A stretch of DNA of 64,000 nucleotides from Thermosediminibacter litoriperuensis (GTDB lineage Bacteria > Bacillota > Thermosediminibacteria > Thermosediminibacterales > Thermosediminibacteraceae): contig NZ_VNHO01000006.1 of NCBI RefSeq assembly GCF_008124715.1, forward strand, positions 1 to 64,000, given 5' to 3'. Positions 338-4,985 of the stretch are shown in pieces. A model generated the notes under the pieces. That model was not told where the DNA came from and did not search any database. It saw only the letters and a program-made list of their open reading frames with translations. Made by a program: the position numbers and the translations under genes. How positions within the stretch are numbered: position 1 is the stretch's first letter; each line of letters starts with the position of its first letter.

Positions 338-1777
338 CTATTCCTTCAAAAGACCCTGATAATAAGCTTTAACCCCGGATAATATGGCTGTAGCCGCCTT
401 TTCCCTGAATTCGCGCTCCGAAAGTAGCCTCTCTTCCTCGGGGTTGCTCAAGCAAGCTACGTTTACCACGGTGCAGGGGCTGTTGGTCTCCCTCAGGATA
501 TAAAGGTCGGCTTCCTTCACGCCGTGGTCCGCCAGGTTCAGAGCGGATATCAGCTCCCTATGGACGCAGAGCGAAAGCCTCCTGCCGTTTTCGTCCCCGG
601 GAAAATAAAATATCTCCGTCCCTCCCATGCTTTCGTCGCTGTAAAAGTTCTGGTGGATGCTCACGGTGATGTCGGCCCTGCTCTCGTTGATTATCTTCAC
701 CCTTTCGGGGAGACTTTTGTATTCGTTTTTGTCCCTGGTCATGACCACCCTCGCCCCTTCCTGAACAAGCATTGCCTCTAGGGCTCGAGCTATTTCCAGG
801 TTCACGTAGCCCTCTGAGAGCCCCATAGGTCCGCAGTGGTTGGCTTCTCCTCCCCGGCCGGGGTCGACGGCCACCACCTTGCCGGCAAGGGGTTTTGCTA
901 CGGTAGGTTTTTCTACCTCTGACAGCTCCACGCCCGTGAAGTAGAACTTCAGTATCTCGTCAAGGGGGAATCCCAGTAAGGCCATTCCCCTGGCGCCGTA
1001 CTGGCACATCCCCAATCCGTGGCCGGCTCCCATCACCTCAAAGGTAATACTGGAGACTTTCCAGCTGCAACGGGTGGAAGGCAGATCCAGCAGTTTTTTC
1101 ACGTCGGCGCCGTCGAACACCATATCGCCTATCCTCACCCTTTTGACCCTGCCGGAAGGGGTACTCTGGACTTTATCCACCAGGCCGGGCACTTCCCTTT
1201 TATCGAAGTAATTTTCGTCTAAATTGATACCCAGCCGCTTTTTAAGCTGTCTTATGGAGAAGGTCCTGGTAACCCGCCAGTAGGGGGAGTCCTTGCAGTA
1301 ATTGCATTCCACCCGCCTGAGGTAGCTTACCCTGTTGCCCCATACGTTTTCGGAATCCTCGGTGTACCCGCCGCACGCGCGGTGGTATACCGCCTCTATG
1401 GGGTTGTCGTTATAGGTGAGTATTATCCCGGAAGTATCCTCCACCGCCTTTTTAATCTTTTGCATGTACTCCTCGAATCTGGCCCCCCAGAGCTTCCTGC
1501 GGTCATCTTCGTCGAGAAATCCCTGGCAGTGCAGGGGGTCGCTGCACAGGTCGTAATCCGGATATCTGCGGCATCCGGTACCGTCAAAAGCCCTCATCCT
1601 CCGCACGGCTATGGTCCTGGCGCATACAGCCTGGGCCTTGAGAGCTTCCGGAGGAAACTCCGCCGGCATGGCGTAGGATACGGCGCCCGCCACGTATTCT
1701 TCCATTTCGAGCACCAGATCCCTTTTTTTCTCCACGTCAAATATCCTAACTTTAAGTCCATCGCATCCATCTGTCAT
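338..1777 (-). CDS. SpoIID/LytB domain fused to an N-acetylmuramoyl-L-alanine amidase domain, both with altered active sites
   Basis: Residues 8-285 match the SpoIID/LytB fold (EEYVAGAV, EALKAQAVCART, the YHRACGG and CNYC cysteine/histidine cluster, GAGHGLGMCQYGARGMA). Residues 299-477 match Amidase_3 (VVAVDPGRGG, SIHQNFYS, CLSNPEEE). In B. subtilis SpoIID, a glutamate before Met-Pro is the lytic-transglycosylase residue; here position 36 is Ala (YAMPAEF). In the amidase half, the first zinc-binding His of DPGHGG is Arg308 and the catalytic Glu before the C-terminal SN motif is Asn439; Glu322 and His375 remain. There is no signal peptide, and the ATG at 1777 follows a GGTGATGAT ribosome binding site 17 bases after yabG. 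I infer a non-enzymatic, possibly scaffolding or spore-coat role; loss of activity is not proven. SpoIID and amidases normally occur as separate secreted proteins. Confidence 0.8.
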   Translation of the reverse strand: MTDGCDGLKVRIFDVEKKRDLVLEMEEYVAGAVSYAMPAEFPPEALKAQAVCARTIAVRRMRAFDGTGCRRYPDYDLCSDPLHCQGFLDEDDRRKLWGARFEEYMQKIKKAVEDTSGIILTYNDNPIEAVYHRACGGYTEDSENVWGNRVSYLRRVECNYCKDSPYWRVTRTFSIRQLKKRLGINLDENYFDKREVPGLVDKVQSTPSGRVKRVRIGDMVFDGADVKKLLDLPSTRCSWKVSSITFEVMGAGHGLGMCQYGARGMALLGFPLDEILKFYFTGVELSEVEKPTVAKPLAGKVVAVDPGRGGEANHCGPMGLSEGYVNLEIARALEAMLVQEGARVVMTRDKNEYKSLPERVKIINESRADITVSIHQNFYSDESMGGTEIFYFPGDENGRRLSLCVHRELISALNLADHGVKEADLYILRETNSPCTVVNVACLSNPEEERLLSEREFREKAATAILSGVKAYYQGLLKE

Positions 1778-1794
1778 ATCATCACCATCCCGGA

Positions 1795-2652
1795 TTAATC
1801 GTAGGGAGAGCGCGGCAGCCCCTCCCGCAGCTTGCCCCGGGTTCCAATACCGCCTATACCCTTTATACCGGTTATAGTGGCCTCTATCACATCTCTGGCA
1901 GAAACTACTTTATCGAACGGTGTAAAGGCCACTTTTTCTATTACAAATACCGGGTCCAGAGCGTGAATGAAAACCCGGTGGGGTGAACTGGCGAAATTTG
2001 CGCCGGCTTTTATTAGAGCCTCATAGTGGGACTGGCAGGCGCCGGCGAATATAACCAGGTCATCCAGGGAGGGCTCGTATTTTCTGACTTCCCTGACCGC
2101 TTCTATGAAAAACTTGGAATTTCTGTAGGCGTCCACGTTGTTGAAGTCCCTACGGTTTTTTAAAAGGCCGTCGTGTCCGGTTATCACCAGGATATCGGGA
2201 TTGTACTCCATGACGAGCTGCCTTATCTTCCTGGGCTGATCCTTCTCGGCCAGCTTCACACCGTGGGCCTCGATCCCCAGCTGCCTGTAAGTGGTCAGAC
2301 ATAGCTCCAGGTACTCTTCATCGCCGTCTACATGGAGGACCCTTCCGGGAATATAAAAAAAGCCGTTTTCCTCGGAATTTCCCCGCTTCATCCTGTTTAT
2401 CTCCACTTCCCTGCGGTAAAAAATCCTCTCCATACACTCGTTGTATTTTCTTATATATTCCTTTTTGTACTCGCGTATTTCCGAAGCAGAAGGAAGTACC
2501 AGGTCATCCAGCGGGGCATCGGCAATTACTCTCACGTTTATGCCTCTCAGCAATGCGATACCTTCGTTATCCCTTATCTCCATCACCTTGAAATATATAT
2601 CCTTGCCGTAAGATATCCGGGCCACCACATCTCCGACTTTTACCCTGGCCAT
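1795..2652 (-). CDS. yabG: Sporulation-specific peptidase YabG
   Basis: YabG is a cysteine-type protease made in the mother cell that trims spore coat proteins so that they can be cross-linked. The 285-residue product is close to the usual length and shows the family features: an N-terminal MARVKVGDVVARISYGKD segment, a central LVITGHDG motif, and a conserved FAGACQSHYEALIKAGANFASSP-type region (read in shorter pieces) that contains the candidate catalytic Cys and His. I placed the start at the ATG at 2652 because it follows GAGGAGAGG at the right distance; an open frame continues upstream without a ribosome binding site. The gene lies near ksgA/rsmA as in B. subtilis and precedes the SpoIID-like fusion, probably in one transcript. 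Confidence 0.93.
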   Translation of the reverse strand: MARVKVGDVVARISYGKDIYFKVMEIRDNEGIALLRGINVRVIADAPLDDLVLPSASEIREYKKEYIRKYNECMERIFYRREVEINRMKRGNSEENGFFYIPGRVLHVDGDEEYLELCLTTYRQLGIEAHGVKLAEKDQPRKIRQLVMEYNPDILVITGHDGLLKNRRDFNNVDAYRNSKFFIEAVREVRKYEPSLDDLVIFAGACQSHYEALIKAGANFASSPHRVFIHALDPVFVIEKVAFTPFDKVVSARDVIEATITGIKGIGGIGTRGKLREGLPRSPYD

Positions 2653-2753
2653 TTGGCACCTCTCCTCACTCAAGCCGCATGAAATCTTTAAGTGTTTAAT
2701 ACATAATATGTTAGCAGAAATGGGTGTGTTAACAACATAAAGGGGTGAAAAAA

Positions 2754-3572
2754 TTGAACATGGCTGTAGTTCCCGCAAAGAACGAGCAGGGCAGGATAGG
2801 CAAGGTACTGAATCTCCTCAGCGAAACCGCTGTGGACCGGATAGTCGTGGTACTGAACGGCAGCAGGGATGGAACGCTGAAAGAGATCCGGACCCAAAAA
2901 CTCTCGAAGGTAGATGTCCTGAGATTCAGGGAACCGCTGGGGTACGACATCCCCAGGGCCGTAGGAGTTTTTTACGCCCTGAAACAGGGAGCTGAATGCG
3001 TAATTTTCGTCGACGGCGACATGACCGGCAACCTGCTGCCGGCGGTGAACAGGCTCGTCGACGCCGTTGTCAGCGAAAAAGTAGACCTGGCCATGACAGA
3101 GTGCCAGTCAGATATGATCTCGGACAATAAGCTGGCCAGAGAGCTCTATTTATTCCGTAAGCTCTTTAATGAACACCTGGGGATATACCAGAGGGTGGGG
3201 GTCGCAATCCCCTCCCACGGACCCTGTGCGGTTTCCAGAAGGCTCATGATAAGCGCAGACATACGGGATTTTGCCGTTCCCCCCGTTATCCTGGCCTTTG
3301 CGGTAAAACATCATTTGTGCGTGGAAGCCCCCGTCGCGATGCACAGCAGAGAACTGGGTTCAAAAATGCGGGGGTTTTCACACGCAAAAAAAATCGCCGA
3401 GACCATCATCGGCGACATTATCGAGGCTCTGGCTTTTTTCGAAGGCAAGCCCCGGAAGCGTATTTTCCTTCAGAAAGAATATCAGGGCTATAATCCCCGG
3501 CGGCGCTTCGACCTGCTGGAAAGATTCATAGCCCTTTACGGCAGAAATCCTGATCGCAGCCCTTCTACTTAG
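2754..3572 (+). CDS. Family 2-like glycosyltransferase
   Basis: The protein has a GT-A type nucleotide-sugar binding fold: MAVVPAKNEQGRIGKVLNLL at the N-terminus, VVLNGSRDGTLK, and the metal-binding VDGDM near residue 95. It has no clear membrane segment, so it is probably cytosolic. Donor and acceptor are unknown; the best parallel is with dolichyl-phosphate or glucosyl-3-phosphoglycerate-like transferases, but I cannot choose. The TTG at 2754 is preferred over the GTG at 2745, because AAAGGGGTGA (which includes that GTG) sits at ribosome-binding distance, as it does for ssb in this window. The gene is divergent from yabG and overlaps the end of the convergent ykuK-like gene by 8 bases. Confidence 0.75.
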   Translation: MNMAVVPAKNEQGRIGKVLNLLSETAVDRIVVVLNGSRDGTLKEIRTQKLSKVDVLRFREPLGYDIPRAVGVFYALKQGAECVIFVDGDMTGNLLPAVNRLVDAVVSEKVDLAMTECQSDMISDNKLARELYLFRKLFNEHLGIYQRVGVAIPSHGPCAVSRRLMISADIRDFAVPPVILAFAVKHHLCVEAPVAMHSRELGSKMRGFSHAKKIAETIIGDIIEALAFFEGKPRKRIFLQKEYQGYNPRRRFDLLERFIALYGRNPDRSPST

Positions 3573-4035
3573 TGTATTTATCCGCAACCTTGGTGGCGCC
3601 GAAGGCCTGAGGCTTTATTTTCACCTTGTAACCGCTGCTCATGACCCACCCCACCACCTCGCGGATCAGTTCCTTCGTATCTCCTTTCTGACCTATATCC
3701 ACGTGGATTTCCACGTCCATGTTGCGGTAGCTGGTCTTTGACAGTTCCTCCTTCAGCAAATTCACCGCTTCCAGGGAGAGGGACGTCTCGGTATATACCT
3801 TATGCCGCAGGCTCTTCACCTGGGACATAAACTTCCGCCGGTAATAATACCGGGCGCCCTTCCCCACCCGGTGTACTATAATAGCCGTCACGAAGCATAC
3901 GTTGTCCCGGGCCTGAGAATCAGTGCCGATAATGAGCTTGTAAGGGGCATTAGGCTCCTCTTCCATAAAGGCAATGATGTCCTTTACTACTTCAGTAATG
4001 GGAATCCTTCCTTTTGTAGGGCTGATAAAGTACAT
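3565..4035 (-). CDS. YkuK-family RNase H-like protein (DUF458)
   Basis: The 156-residue product starts MYFISPTKGRIPITEVV and continues with YKLIIGTDSQ, the ribonuclease H-like core beta strand carrying an acidic residue, then a long YYYRRKFM segment and a C-terminal VHVDIG-type strand (EIHVDIGQKG). This is the pattern of the B. subtilis YkuK family, whose members are annotated as RNase H-like but whose function is unknown. I chose the ATG at 4035 because family members begin just before the N/SPTKG motif; an upstream extension to 4095 would read through a tandem repeat. The ribosome binding site (GGACGGG) is weak. It is transcribed toward, and overlaps, the glycosyltransferase gene. Confidence 0.8.
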   Translation of the reverse strand: MYFISPTKGRIPITEVVKDIIAFMEEEPNAPYKLIIGTDSQARDNVCFVTAIIVHRVGKGARYYYRRKFMSQVKSLRHKVYTETSLSLEAVNLLKEELSKTSYRNMDVEIHVDIGQKGDTKELIREVVGWVMSSGYKVKIKPQAFGATKVADKYTK

Positions 4036-4059
4036 CTCAATCCCGTCCTTAACTCTATA

Positions 4060-4087
4060 TATATGTACAAAAGTATATGTACAAAAG
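4060..4087. repeat. Perfect tandem 14-base repeat upstream of the ykuK-like gene
   Basis: TATATGTACAAAAG occurs twice back to back (4060-4073 and 4074-4087). It lies 25 bases upstream of the ykuK-like start and 56 bases downstream of the stop of rsmA. On the minus strand each copy reads CTTTTGTACATATA, containing the palindrome TGTACA and a -10-like TACATA. It could be an operator or overlapping promoter elements; it could equally be a chance duplication. Confidence 0.7.
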
Positions 4088-4142
4088 CCCCCCACCTTAT
4101 ATATTATATGCTGCCTGAAGCCCCTCGCTGTACACAGTCAGA

Positions 4143-4985
4143 TCAGTCTTCCAGGTTTTTTGATATTTCCCGCGCTAAAGCTGCAAACTCCTGGATGGTC
4201 AGCGTTTCAGCCCGGCGGGTGCCGTCGATTCCCGCCCTCCCGAGGGCTTCTTCCACATCACCGGGGGAGAGCCCCAGCCGGCTAATGAGAGAGTTCCGGA
4301 CGGTCTTTCGCCTTTCGCCGAAGGCAGCCTCCACAACCCTGAAAAACAGCCTTTCGTCTTTAAGGGGTACCACGGGGCCGTCCTTCAGCACCAGCCTTAC
4401 CACCGCCGAATCCACCTTCGGGGGCGGCAGGAAGGCCGACCTTCCCACATGGCATATCAGGTCCACGCCGGCGTAAAGCTGCGCAGCTATGGAGAGTATG
4501 CCGTAGTCCTTACTGCCCGGCGCCGCTGCCAACCGCTGAGCCACTTCCTTCTGTACCATAATAACCGCCATTTTGATCAAATGGCGGTTATTTATTATTT
4601 TCATTATGACCGGACTGGTTATATAATAGGGGAGATTGGCCACGACCTTGAACTCACCCTCGAAGTACTCCCGCCTCAGCTGATCCATATCTAATTTTAG
4701 CACATCTTCCCGCAATAAACAAATATTTTTATAACTTTTTGTCAATTTTTCGAGCACCGGGATAAGATTCGGATCTTTTTCCACGGCTACCACTTTTTTC
4801 GCCCGCCGGCAAAGTTCAAGGGTAAGCACCCCGAGGCCCGGCCCTATCTCCAGGACTTCGTCGCTCTCCTGCAGCCGGGCGGCTTCCAGCATCTTATTTA
4901 AAGGAGCCTCGTCCACAAGGAAGTGCTGGCCCAGGCGTTTGCTGGGCCTTATGCCGAACTCCCTCATTATAGCCCTGGTGTTCAA
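4143..4985 (-). CDS. rsmA: 16S rRNA (adenine1518-N6/adenine1519-N6)-dimethyltransferase RsmA (KsgA)
   Basis: RsmA transfers four methyl groups from S-adenosylmethionine to two adjacent adenines near the 3' end of 16S rRNA during small-subunit assembly. The 280-residue product has the family N-terminus (RPSKRLGQHFLVDE), the SAM-binding VLEIGPGLGVLTLEL, the VEKDPN acidic loop, and the catalytic NLPY motif (VVANLPYYITSP). The C-terminal domain ends at the usual place. The start is the TTG at 4985, which overlaps the stop of the upstream radical SAM gene by 4 bases (GGGG is 7 bases upstream), so translation is probably coupled. The order tatD-x-rsmA-yabG matches B. subtilis except that rnmV is missing. 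Confidence 0.96.
   Translation of the reverse strand: MNTRAIMREFGIRPSKRLGQHFLVDEAPLNKMLEAARLQESDEVLEIGPGLGVLTLELCRRAKKVVAVEKDPNLIPVLEKLTKSYKNICLLREDVLKLDMDQLRREYFEGEFKVVANLPYYITSPVIMKIINNRHLIKMAVIMVQKEVAQRLAAAPGSKDYGILSIAAQLYAGVDLICHVGRSAFLPPPKVDSAVVRLVLKDGPVVPLKDERLFFRVVEAAFGERRKTVRNSLISRLGLSPGDVEEALGRAGIDGTRRAETLTIQEFAALAREISKNLED

Follow-up and report, generated by a model that had tools for sequence, protein, structure and literature searches.

The fusion gene and its surroundings

The window (the whole 64,000-nucleotide stretch of Thermosediminibacter litoriperuensis DNA that was analysed) contains near its left end a minus-strand open reading frame that starts with an ATG at 1777 and stops with a TAG at 338-340. 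Its product joins a SpoIID/LytB domain to an Amidase_3 domain, and the gene for the sporulation protease YabG lies a short distance upstream on the same strand, itself preceded by a promoter-like element (Table 1). A sequence-only reading of the same DNA had described both the frame and the joining of the two domains; the frame is real, although its strand was absent from that account, and the fusion is confirmed by Pfam matches in both halves and by a TIGR02870 score above its cut-off. The CwlD equivalog model TIGR02883, on the other hand, gave only 110.2 bits against a cut-off of 221.55. Positions 1-261 of the window encode the C-terminal portion of an IS30 transposase, which sits at the contig end, 77 bp beyond the stop codon of the fusion gene.

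Table 1. Features of the fusion gene and its upstream region in the window. Residue counts refer to the order-level clade (n = 19, window included).
Feature	Position	Strand	Basis and remarks
SpoIID-Amidase_3 fusion CDS	338..1777	-	479 aa, no signal peptide
SpoIID/LytB domain	residues 8-288; 914..1756	-	TIGR02870 (stage II sporulation protein D) at residues 9-287, 285.9 bits (cut-off 234.75); Pfam SpoIID at residues 23-122; fold match to 5i1t and 4rwr
Codon 36, GCC, Ala at SpoIID catalytic Glu (C. difficile E101)	1670..1672	-	Alignment, codon check; Ala 8, Ser 11 (Ala/Ser in 19/19); Glu in active outgroups
SpoIID zinc loop, residues 72-84	1526..1564	-	Alignment, codons; Cys78, His83 and Cys84 kept, H134 equivalent is Tyr72; mutational data PMC6221140
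Amidase_3 domain	residues 300-474; 356..880	-	Pfam Amidase_3 at residues 302-470, 135 bits (cut-off 27); fold match to 4rn7, 1jwq and 5emi
Codon 308, CGG, Arg at first zinc His	854..856	-	Alignment, codon check; His 9, Arg 7, Gln 2, Lys 1
Codon 322, GAG, Glu, second zinc ligand, kept	812..814	-	Alignment, codon check
Codon 375, CAC, His, third zinc ligand, kept here	653..655	-	Alignment, codon check; His 11, Gln 8 (8/19)
Codon 439, AAC, Asn at Amidase_3 catalytic Glu	461..463	-	Alignment, codon check; Asn 17 (17/19), His 1, Phe 1
yabG, sporulation protease	1795..2652	-	17 nt upstream of fusion, same strand; TIGR02855, 381.7 bits; adjacency kept in class
Mother-cell-type promoter-like element upstream of yabG, AACAC ... 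CATATTATGTATTA	2697..2733	-	Conserved core; sigma class inferred

An AlphaFold2 model built from 31 aligned sequences has a mean pLDDT of 87.9 and a pTM of 0.62, with residues 140-156 weak; the domains are thus modelled well, whereas their placement relative to each other is uncertain. In VIA-align comparisons, the model matched C. difficile SpoIID (5i1t; Z 27.4, 227 residues, 3.0 A) and the amidase 4rn7 (Z about 30, 180 residues, 1.7 A), and its SpoIID half also matched the cortex-lytic enzyme SleC (9h68; Z 16.9, 159 residues, 2.7 A). The amidase-activator complexes 7rag (CwlD-GerS) and 7tj4 (LytH-ActH) were among the fold matches. Both hydrolase folds are therefore predicted by the model to be kept in the fusion.

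Catalytic residues

The catalytic glutamate of SpoIID (E88 in B. subtilis, E101 in C. difficile) has no counterpart in the fusion protein: Ala36 lies opposite residue 101 of 5txu, a full-length chain of C. difficile SpoIID, in a pairwise alignment where query residue 22 pairs with chain residue 87 and no gap intervenes. The E101A form of C. difficile SpoIID has no activity in vitro and fails to complement in vivo, yet it keeps zinc binding and gains heat stability; zinc binding itself requires C140 and H145 (PMC6221140). The equivalents of C140, H145, and C146 in the fusion are Cys78, His83, and Cys84. Beside the dead SpoIID site, Ala35 is replaced by Tyr and Ser133 by Arg in the family of the window protein, and six members of the 19-sequence alignment have Asn in place of His253. 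With Tyr35 and Arg133 so placed, unaltered glycan binding is not to be assumed, and the ability of the SpoIID half to bind glycan may be changed or gone.

In the amidase half, the zinc triad of His, Glu, and His is incomplete, being represented by Arg308, Glu322, and His375, and the catalytic Glu expected ahead of the SN motif is matched by Asn439. In the alignment to CwlV, Arg308 falls on the His of 'DAGHG' and Asn439 on the Glu of 'LLEVGYLSN'. The sequence-only reading had named Ala36, Arg308, and Asn439 as replacements of catalytic residues, and in all three cases the codon and the pairing with a known protein agree with it. Its broader statement, that both active sites are lost, is exact for the two catalytic glutamates but goes too far for zinc, as those sites are lost only in part: Glu322, His375, Cys78, His83, and Cys84 all stay. 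Misalignment of the catalytic positions was considered and rejected on the basis of the pairwise alignments to solved structures and of intact paralogues. The same genome provides three SpoIID-type and two amidase paralogues that could be aligned, all of which keep their catalytic residues; an intact SpoIID is thus encoded apart from the fusion, and SpoIIP is encoded by two genes. Because these paralogues are intact and the losses are common to a whole clade of orthologues, the losses are far beyond chance.

Orthologues and the order of losses

An orthologue of the fusion is present in 24 of the 25 relatives that represent the class of the window (groups f1-f5), with 42-87% identity, although two are fragmented or truncated. 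Nineteen aligned sequences, including that of the window, form an order-level clade on a single branch with a support of 100/100. The sequence-only reading had suggested examining whether the three replacements are conserved in homologues: throughout the clade, position 36 is Ala or Ser and position 439 is nearly always Asn, but position 308 varies, and Arg is found there in a minority of members (Table 1). Glutamate losses that are clade-wide, together with zinc ligands that are variable inside the clade, fit a sequence in which the glutamates went first and the ligands later; the zinc ligands have been lost separately, several times, inside the clade.

Outgroup orthologues are more complete. 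All five catalytic residues are intact in two of them (L022 and L044), and losses are partial in two others (L046 and L047); since intact forms and intermediates of graded loss both exist, the sequence of losses is readable. The intact pair makes it likely that the ancestor was an active bifunctional enzyme, i.e., a two-domain peptidoglycan hydrolase combining lytic transglycosylase and amidase. L044, L046, and L047 have an additional N-terminal region, and in L044 and L047 a Cu_amine_oxidN1 domain is found ahead of the SpoIID domain.

The same fusion also occurs in distant relatives (Maledivibacter, Anaerosalibacter, Tissierella, Alkaliphilus, and others). Degeneration in Tissierellia-type relatives is found instead on the SpoIID side, where the Glu is often Gln or the zinc loop is lacking; the amidase half has mostly kept its residues. 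Trees of the separate domains place all sampled fusions to one side of a branch, with SH-aLRT values of 96 for the SpoIID half and 93 for the amidase half; these trees, which have no inferred root and a limited sample of canonical proteins, are compatible with a single fusion origin.

Selective constraint

Pairwise dN/dS ranges from 0.03 to 0.13 in the SpoIID half and from 0.03 to 0.17 in the amidase half, and the reading frames are open in almost all clade orthologues. Positions conserved in the canonical proteins are largely retained: at least 90% of clade members share 41 of 57 in SpoIID and 14 of 22 in the amidase, and both zinc His and the catalytic Glu are among the amidase positions lost. 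The earlier account had allowed that this copy might simply be decaying while close relatives remained intact. Close relatives in fact have the same losses, and only distant ones are intact.

The yabG locus

In every genome of the class that has the fusion, yabG is directly upstream of it, and the adjacency already pointed out for the window is thus kept across the class. From their spacing, yabG and the fusion gene probably constitute an operon. One genome of the same order as the window, G015 (99% complete), has neither the fusion, nor yabG, nor spoIIP, whereas all other genomes of the class have both yabG and spoIIP; given these absences, G015 is probably asporogenous.

The element upstream of yabG, CATATTATG, is a candidate mother-cell-type promoter. 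Its core, AACAC...CATATTATGTA(T/A)TA, is conserved across the order-level clade, most strictly in the -10 part, and is similar in the outgroups; judged by eye against the consensus, it would belong to the sigma-K or sigma-E class. In C. difficile, sigma-K controls yabG and sigma-E controls sipL (PMC3789822).

In relatives, the fusion gene is followed by veg, a NAL1/trypsin-like gene, a CAP-domain gene, and sipL. This linkage, and co-occurrence with sporulation genes, place it in the conserved sporulation locus yabG-veg-sipL. The NAL1-N/trypsin-like gene (L034:7971-8975) and the CAP-domain gene (L034:9422-10237) are conserved in the order between veg and sipL. The C. difficile locus runs from yabG to veg and then sipL, with no fusion-type gene described between them (PMC10681294); the order as described there also lacks the NAL1-N/trypsin-like and CAP-domain genes, both of which relatives within the order have. 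No veg gene was found in the assembly of the window, where sipL lies close to the beginning of a different contig; with an IS30 fragment at the contig end, the operon may be interrupted or may fall in an assembly gap.

Several Tissierellia-type loci have the fusion immediately upstream of veg, with sipL-type genes further along, and yabG is absent from 11 of the 12 Tissierellia-type genomes that have the fusion. In Maledivibacter, the fusion stands between yabG and veg, and an insertion interrupts yabG. In Maledivibacter halophilus (L049:1834-5822), this insertion is ~3.1 kb long and carries a large serine recombinase gene (2837-4267, plus strand) and an S-adenosylmethionine decarboxylase-like ORF. 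It is possibly a skin-like element excised at sporulation; no clear core repeat was found at its junctions.

Cell location

A 12-residue Kyte-Doolittle scan of the N-terminal region of the fusion peaks at a hydropathy of 0.48, compared with 2.8-3.7 for the five paralogues; the intact spoIID product reaches 3.74, and by this measure the N-terminal membrane anchor typical of SpoIID is absent from the fusion. A secreted enzyme was therefore rejected for the window protein, in line with the sequence-only description of it as cytosolic-looking. That description went on to propose a fused pseudo-enzyme next to yabG; purifying selection across the order and the linkage to yabG make a fused, non-secreted pseudo-enzyme in a coat-assembly locus a sound reading of the sequences. 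The functions that it offered, as scaffold, coat component, or glycan-binding decoy, are candidates that go beyond what the sequences establish. Missing a signal peptide, the fusion should reach peptidoglycan only after mother-cell lysis. SafA and SleL/YaaH, mother-cell proteins that also have no signal peptide, arrive at the coat-cortex region.

Proposed role

Going by its residues, the fusion is almost certainly catalytically dead, and it is very probably a mother-cell sporulation protein. The loss of both cutting sites throughout an order of heat-loving spore formers, in a protein that is otherwise strongly preserved, suggests a part in making or waking the spore that involves no cutting. 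Whether that part is binding or scaffolding at the coat or cortex is an even call, but we consider the combined picture, of a catalytically dead mother-cell sporulation protein at the coat/cortex that descended from an active two-domain hydrolase, to be somewhat probable. The fusion would be a late mother-cell product, expressed alongside YabG through sigma-K or sigma-E; without a signal peptide it would stay on the cytoplasmic side and become incorporated at the coat or the coat-cortex interface, where its two hydrolase folds would bind or scaffold partners from the coat or cortex. Alternatively, they would bind the cortex glycan, once accessible, or the fusion would be a client or partner of YabG. 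A further reading, rather unlikely, is that a double pseudo-hydrolase from the mother-cell cytosol took on a new task at the base of the order: it would recognise the glycan or peptide stems of the cortex, leave them uncut, and serve as a link between coat and cortex or as a germination sensor, with YabG controlling its maturation.

Pseudoenzymes commonly do regulatory or scaffolding work, and the fusion might instead control one of its active paralogues (SpoIID, CwlD, SpoIIP, or an enzyme that lyses cortex) by binding the partner or substrate of that paralogue, as in GerS-CwlD, ActH-LytH, or CspC/CspA-CspB. Active SpoIID, amidase, and SpoIIP paralogues are indeed encoded in the same genome, complexes of this type (7rag and 7tj4) are among the fold matches, and germination of C. 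difficile is regulated by pseudoproteases. However, the paralogues are membrane-anchored or exported whereas the fusion has no export signal, so that direct contact would require mother-cell lysis or a cytosolic partner, and we hold such regulation to be possible but improbable. Slightly more doubtful is a role as client or partner of YabG, in which the fusion would be processed by YabG during coat maturation in the way of preproSleC and CspBA in C. difficile. The 17 nt gap and the class-wide adjacency would suit such a role, as would the requirement for YabG in preproSleC processing and the match of the SpoIID half to SleC, but the fusion persists in the Tissierellia-type genomes that have no yabG, and there it does not depend on YabG; nor did reading the fusion protein by eye reveal a YabG cleavage motif of the SRQS type.

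Activity retained through unusual residues, for instance by a SpoIID that needs no Glu or by remodelling of the amidase site, is highly improbable: Glu322, His375, and the zinc loop do persist, and Asn439 is conserved rather than drifting, but the equivalent E101A change inactivates C. difficile SpoIID, and the zinc ligands have become Arg, Lys, or Gln in different lineages, as expected once catalysis ceases to matter. Simple decay of a gene on its way out of the lineage, to which the missing catalytic residues and the nearby IS30 fragment might point, was rejected as having almost no chance of being correct in view of the low dN/dS in both halves, the open frames, and identical substitutions order-wide.

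Comparison with known systems

The two domains are already known, but the open-licence literature, searched for fusions of SpoIID with an amidase, for inactive SpoIID, and for pseudoenzyme amidases of spores, gave no description of this protein or of its lineage-wide, doubly dead fusion. The analysis gives an identity to a conserved uncharacterised protein of the yabG-veg-sipL coat locus, and offers a direct target for studying the joining of coat to cortex in Clostridia that do not have most Bacillus coat proteins.

The SpoIID half resembles SpoIID of the engulfment DMP complex (TIGR02870; 5i1t, 5txu, and 4rwr) in its domain, its above-cut-off score, the Cys/His/Cys of its zinc loop, and most of the canonical conserved positions. 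It differs in its replaced Glu, its missing membrane anchor, the attached amidase, and the linkage to yabG, in a genome where intact spoIID is a separate gene. The other half has the fold, the Glu322 and His375 ligands, and the conserved glycines of CwlV, CwlC, and CwlD-type amidases (1jwq, 4rn7, and 7rag), but unlike them has Arg in place of the first zinc His and Asn in place of the catalytic Glu, and it scores below the CwlD cut-off.

One protein holds two dead wall-hydrolase folds; for pseudoenzymes, sporulation offers precedents in SpoIIQ of Bacillus and CspA/CspC of C. difficile. B. subtilis SpoIIQ, a degenerate LytM scaffold of engulfment, has lost a zinc His of LytM and binds SpoIIIAH (PMC4982068). 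The likeness is that a wall hydrolase of sporulation has lost a zinc His throughout a lineage, with clostridial orthologues that are intact; unlike the fusion, SpoIIQ has a single domain of the LytM endopeptidase fold and is a forespore membrane protein. In C. difficile, CspA and CspC are spore pseudoproteases, and the processing of preproSleC is YabG-dependent (PMC6464247). SleC and CspC/CspA are spore proteins tied to YabG, as the fusion would be, SleC sharing the SpoIID-type fold and CspA and CspC being conserved pseudoenzymes; SleC, however, is an active cortex-lytic enzyme, and the Csp proteins are subtilisin-like.
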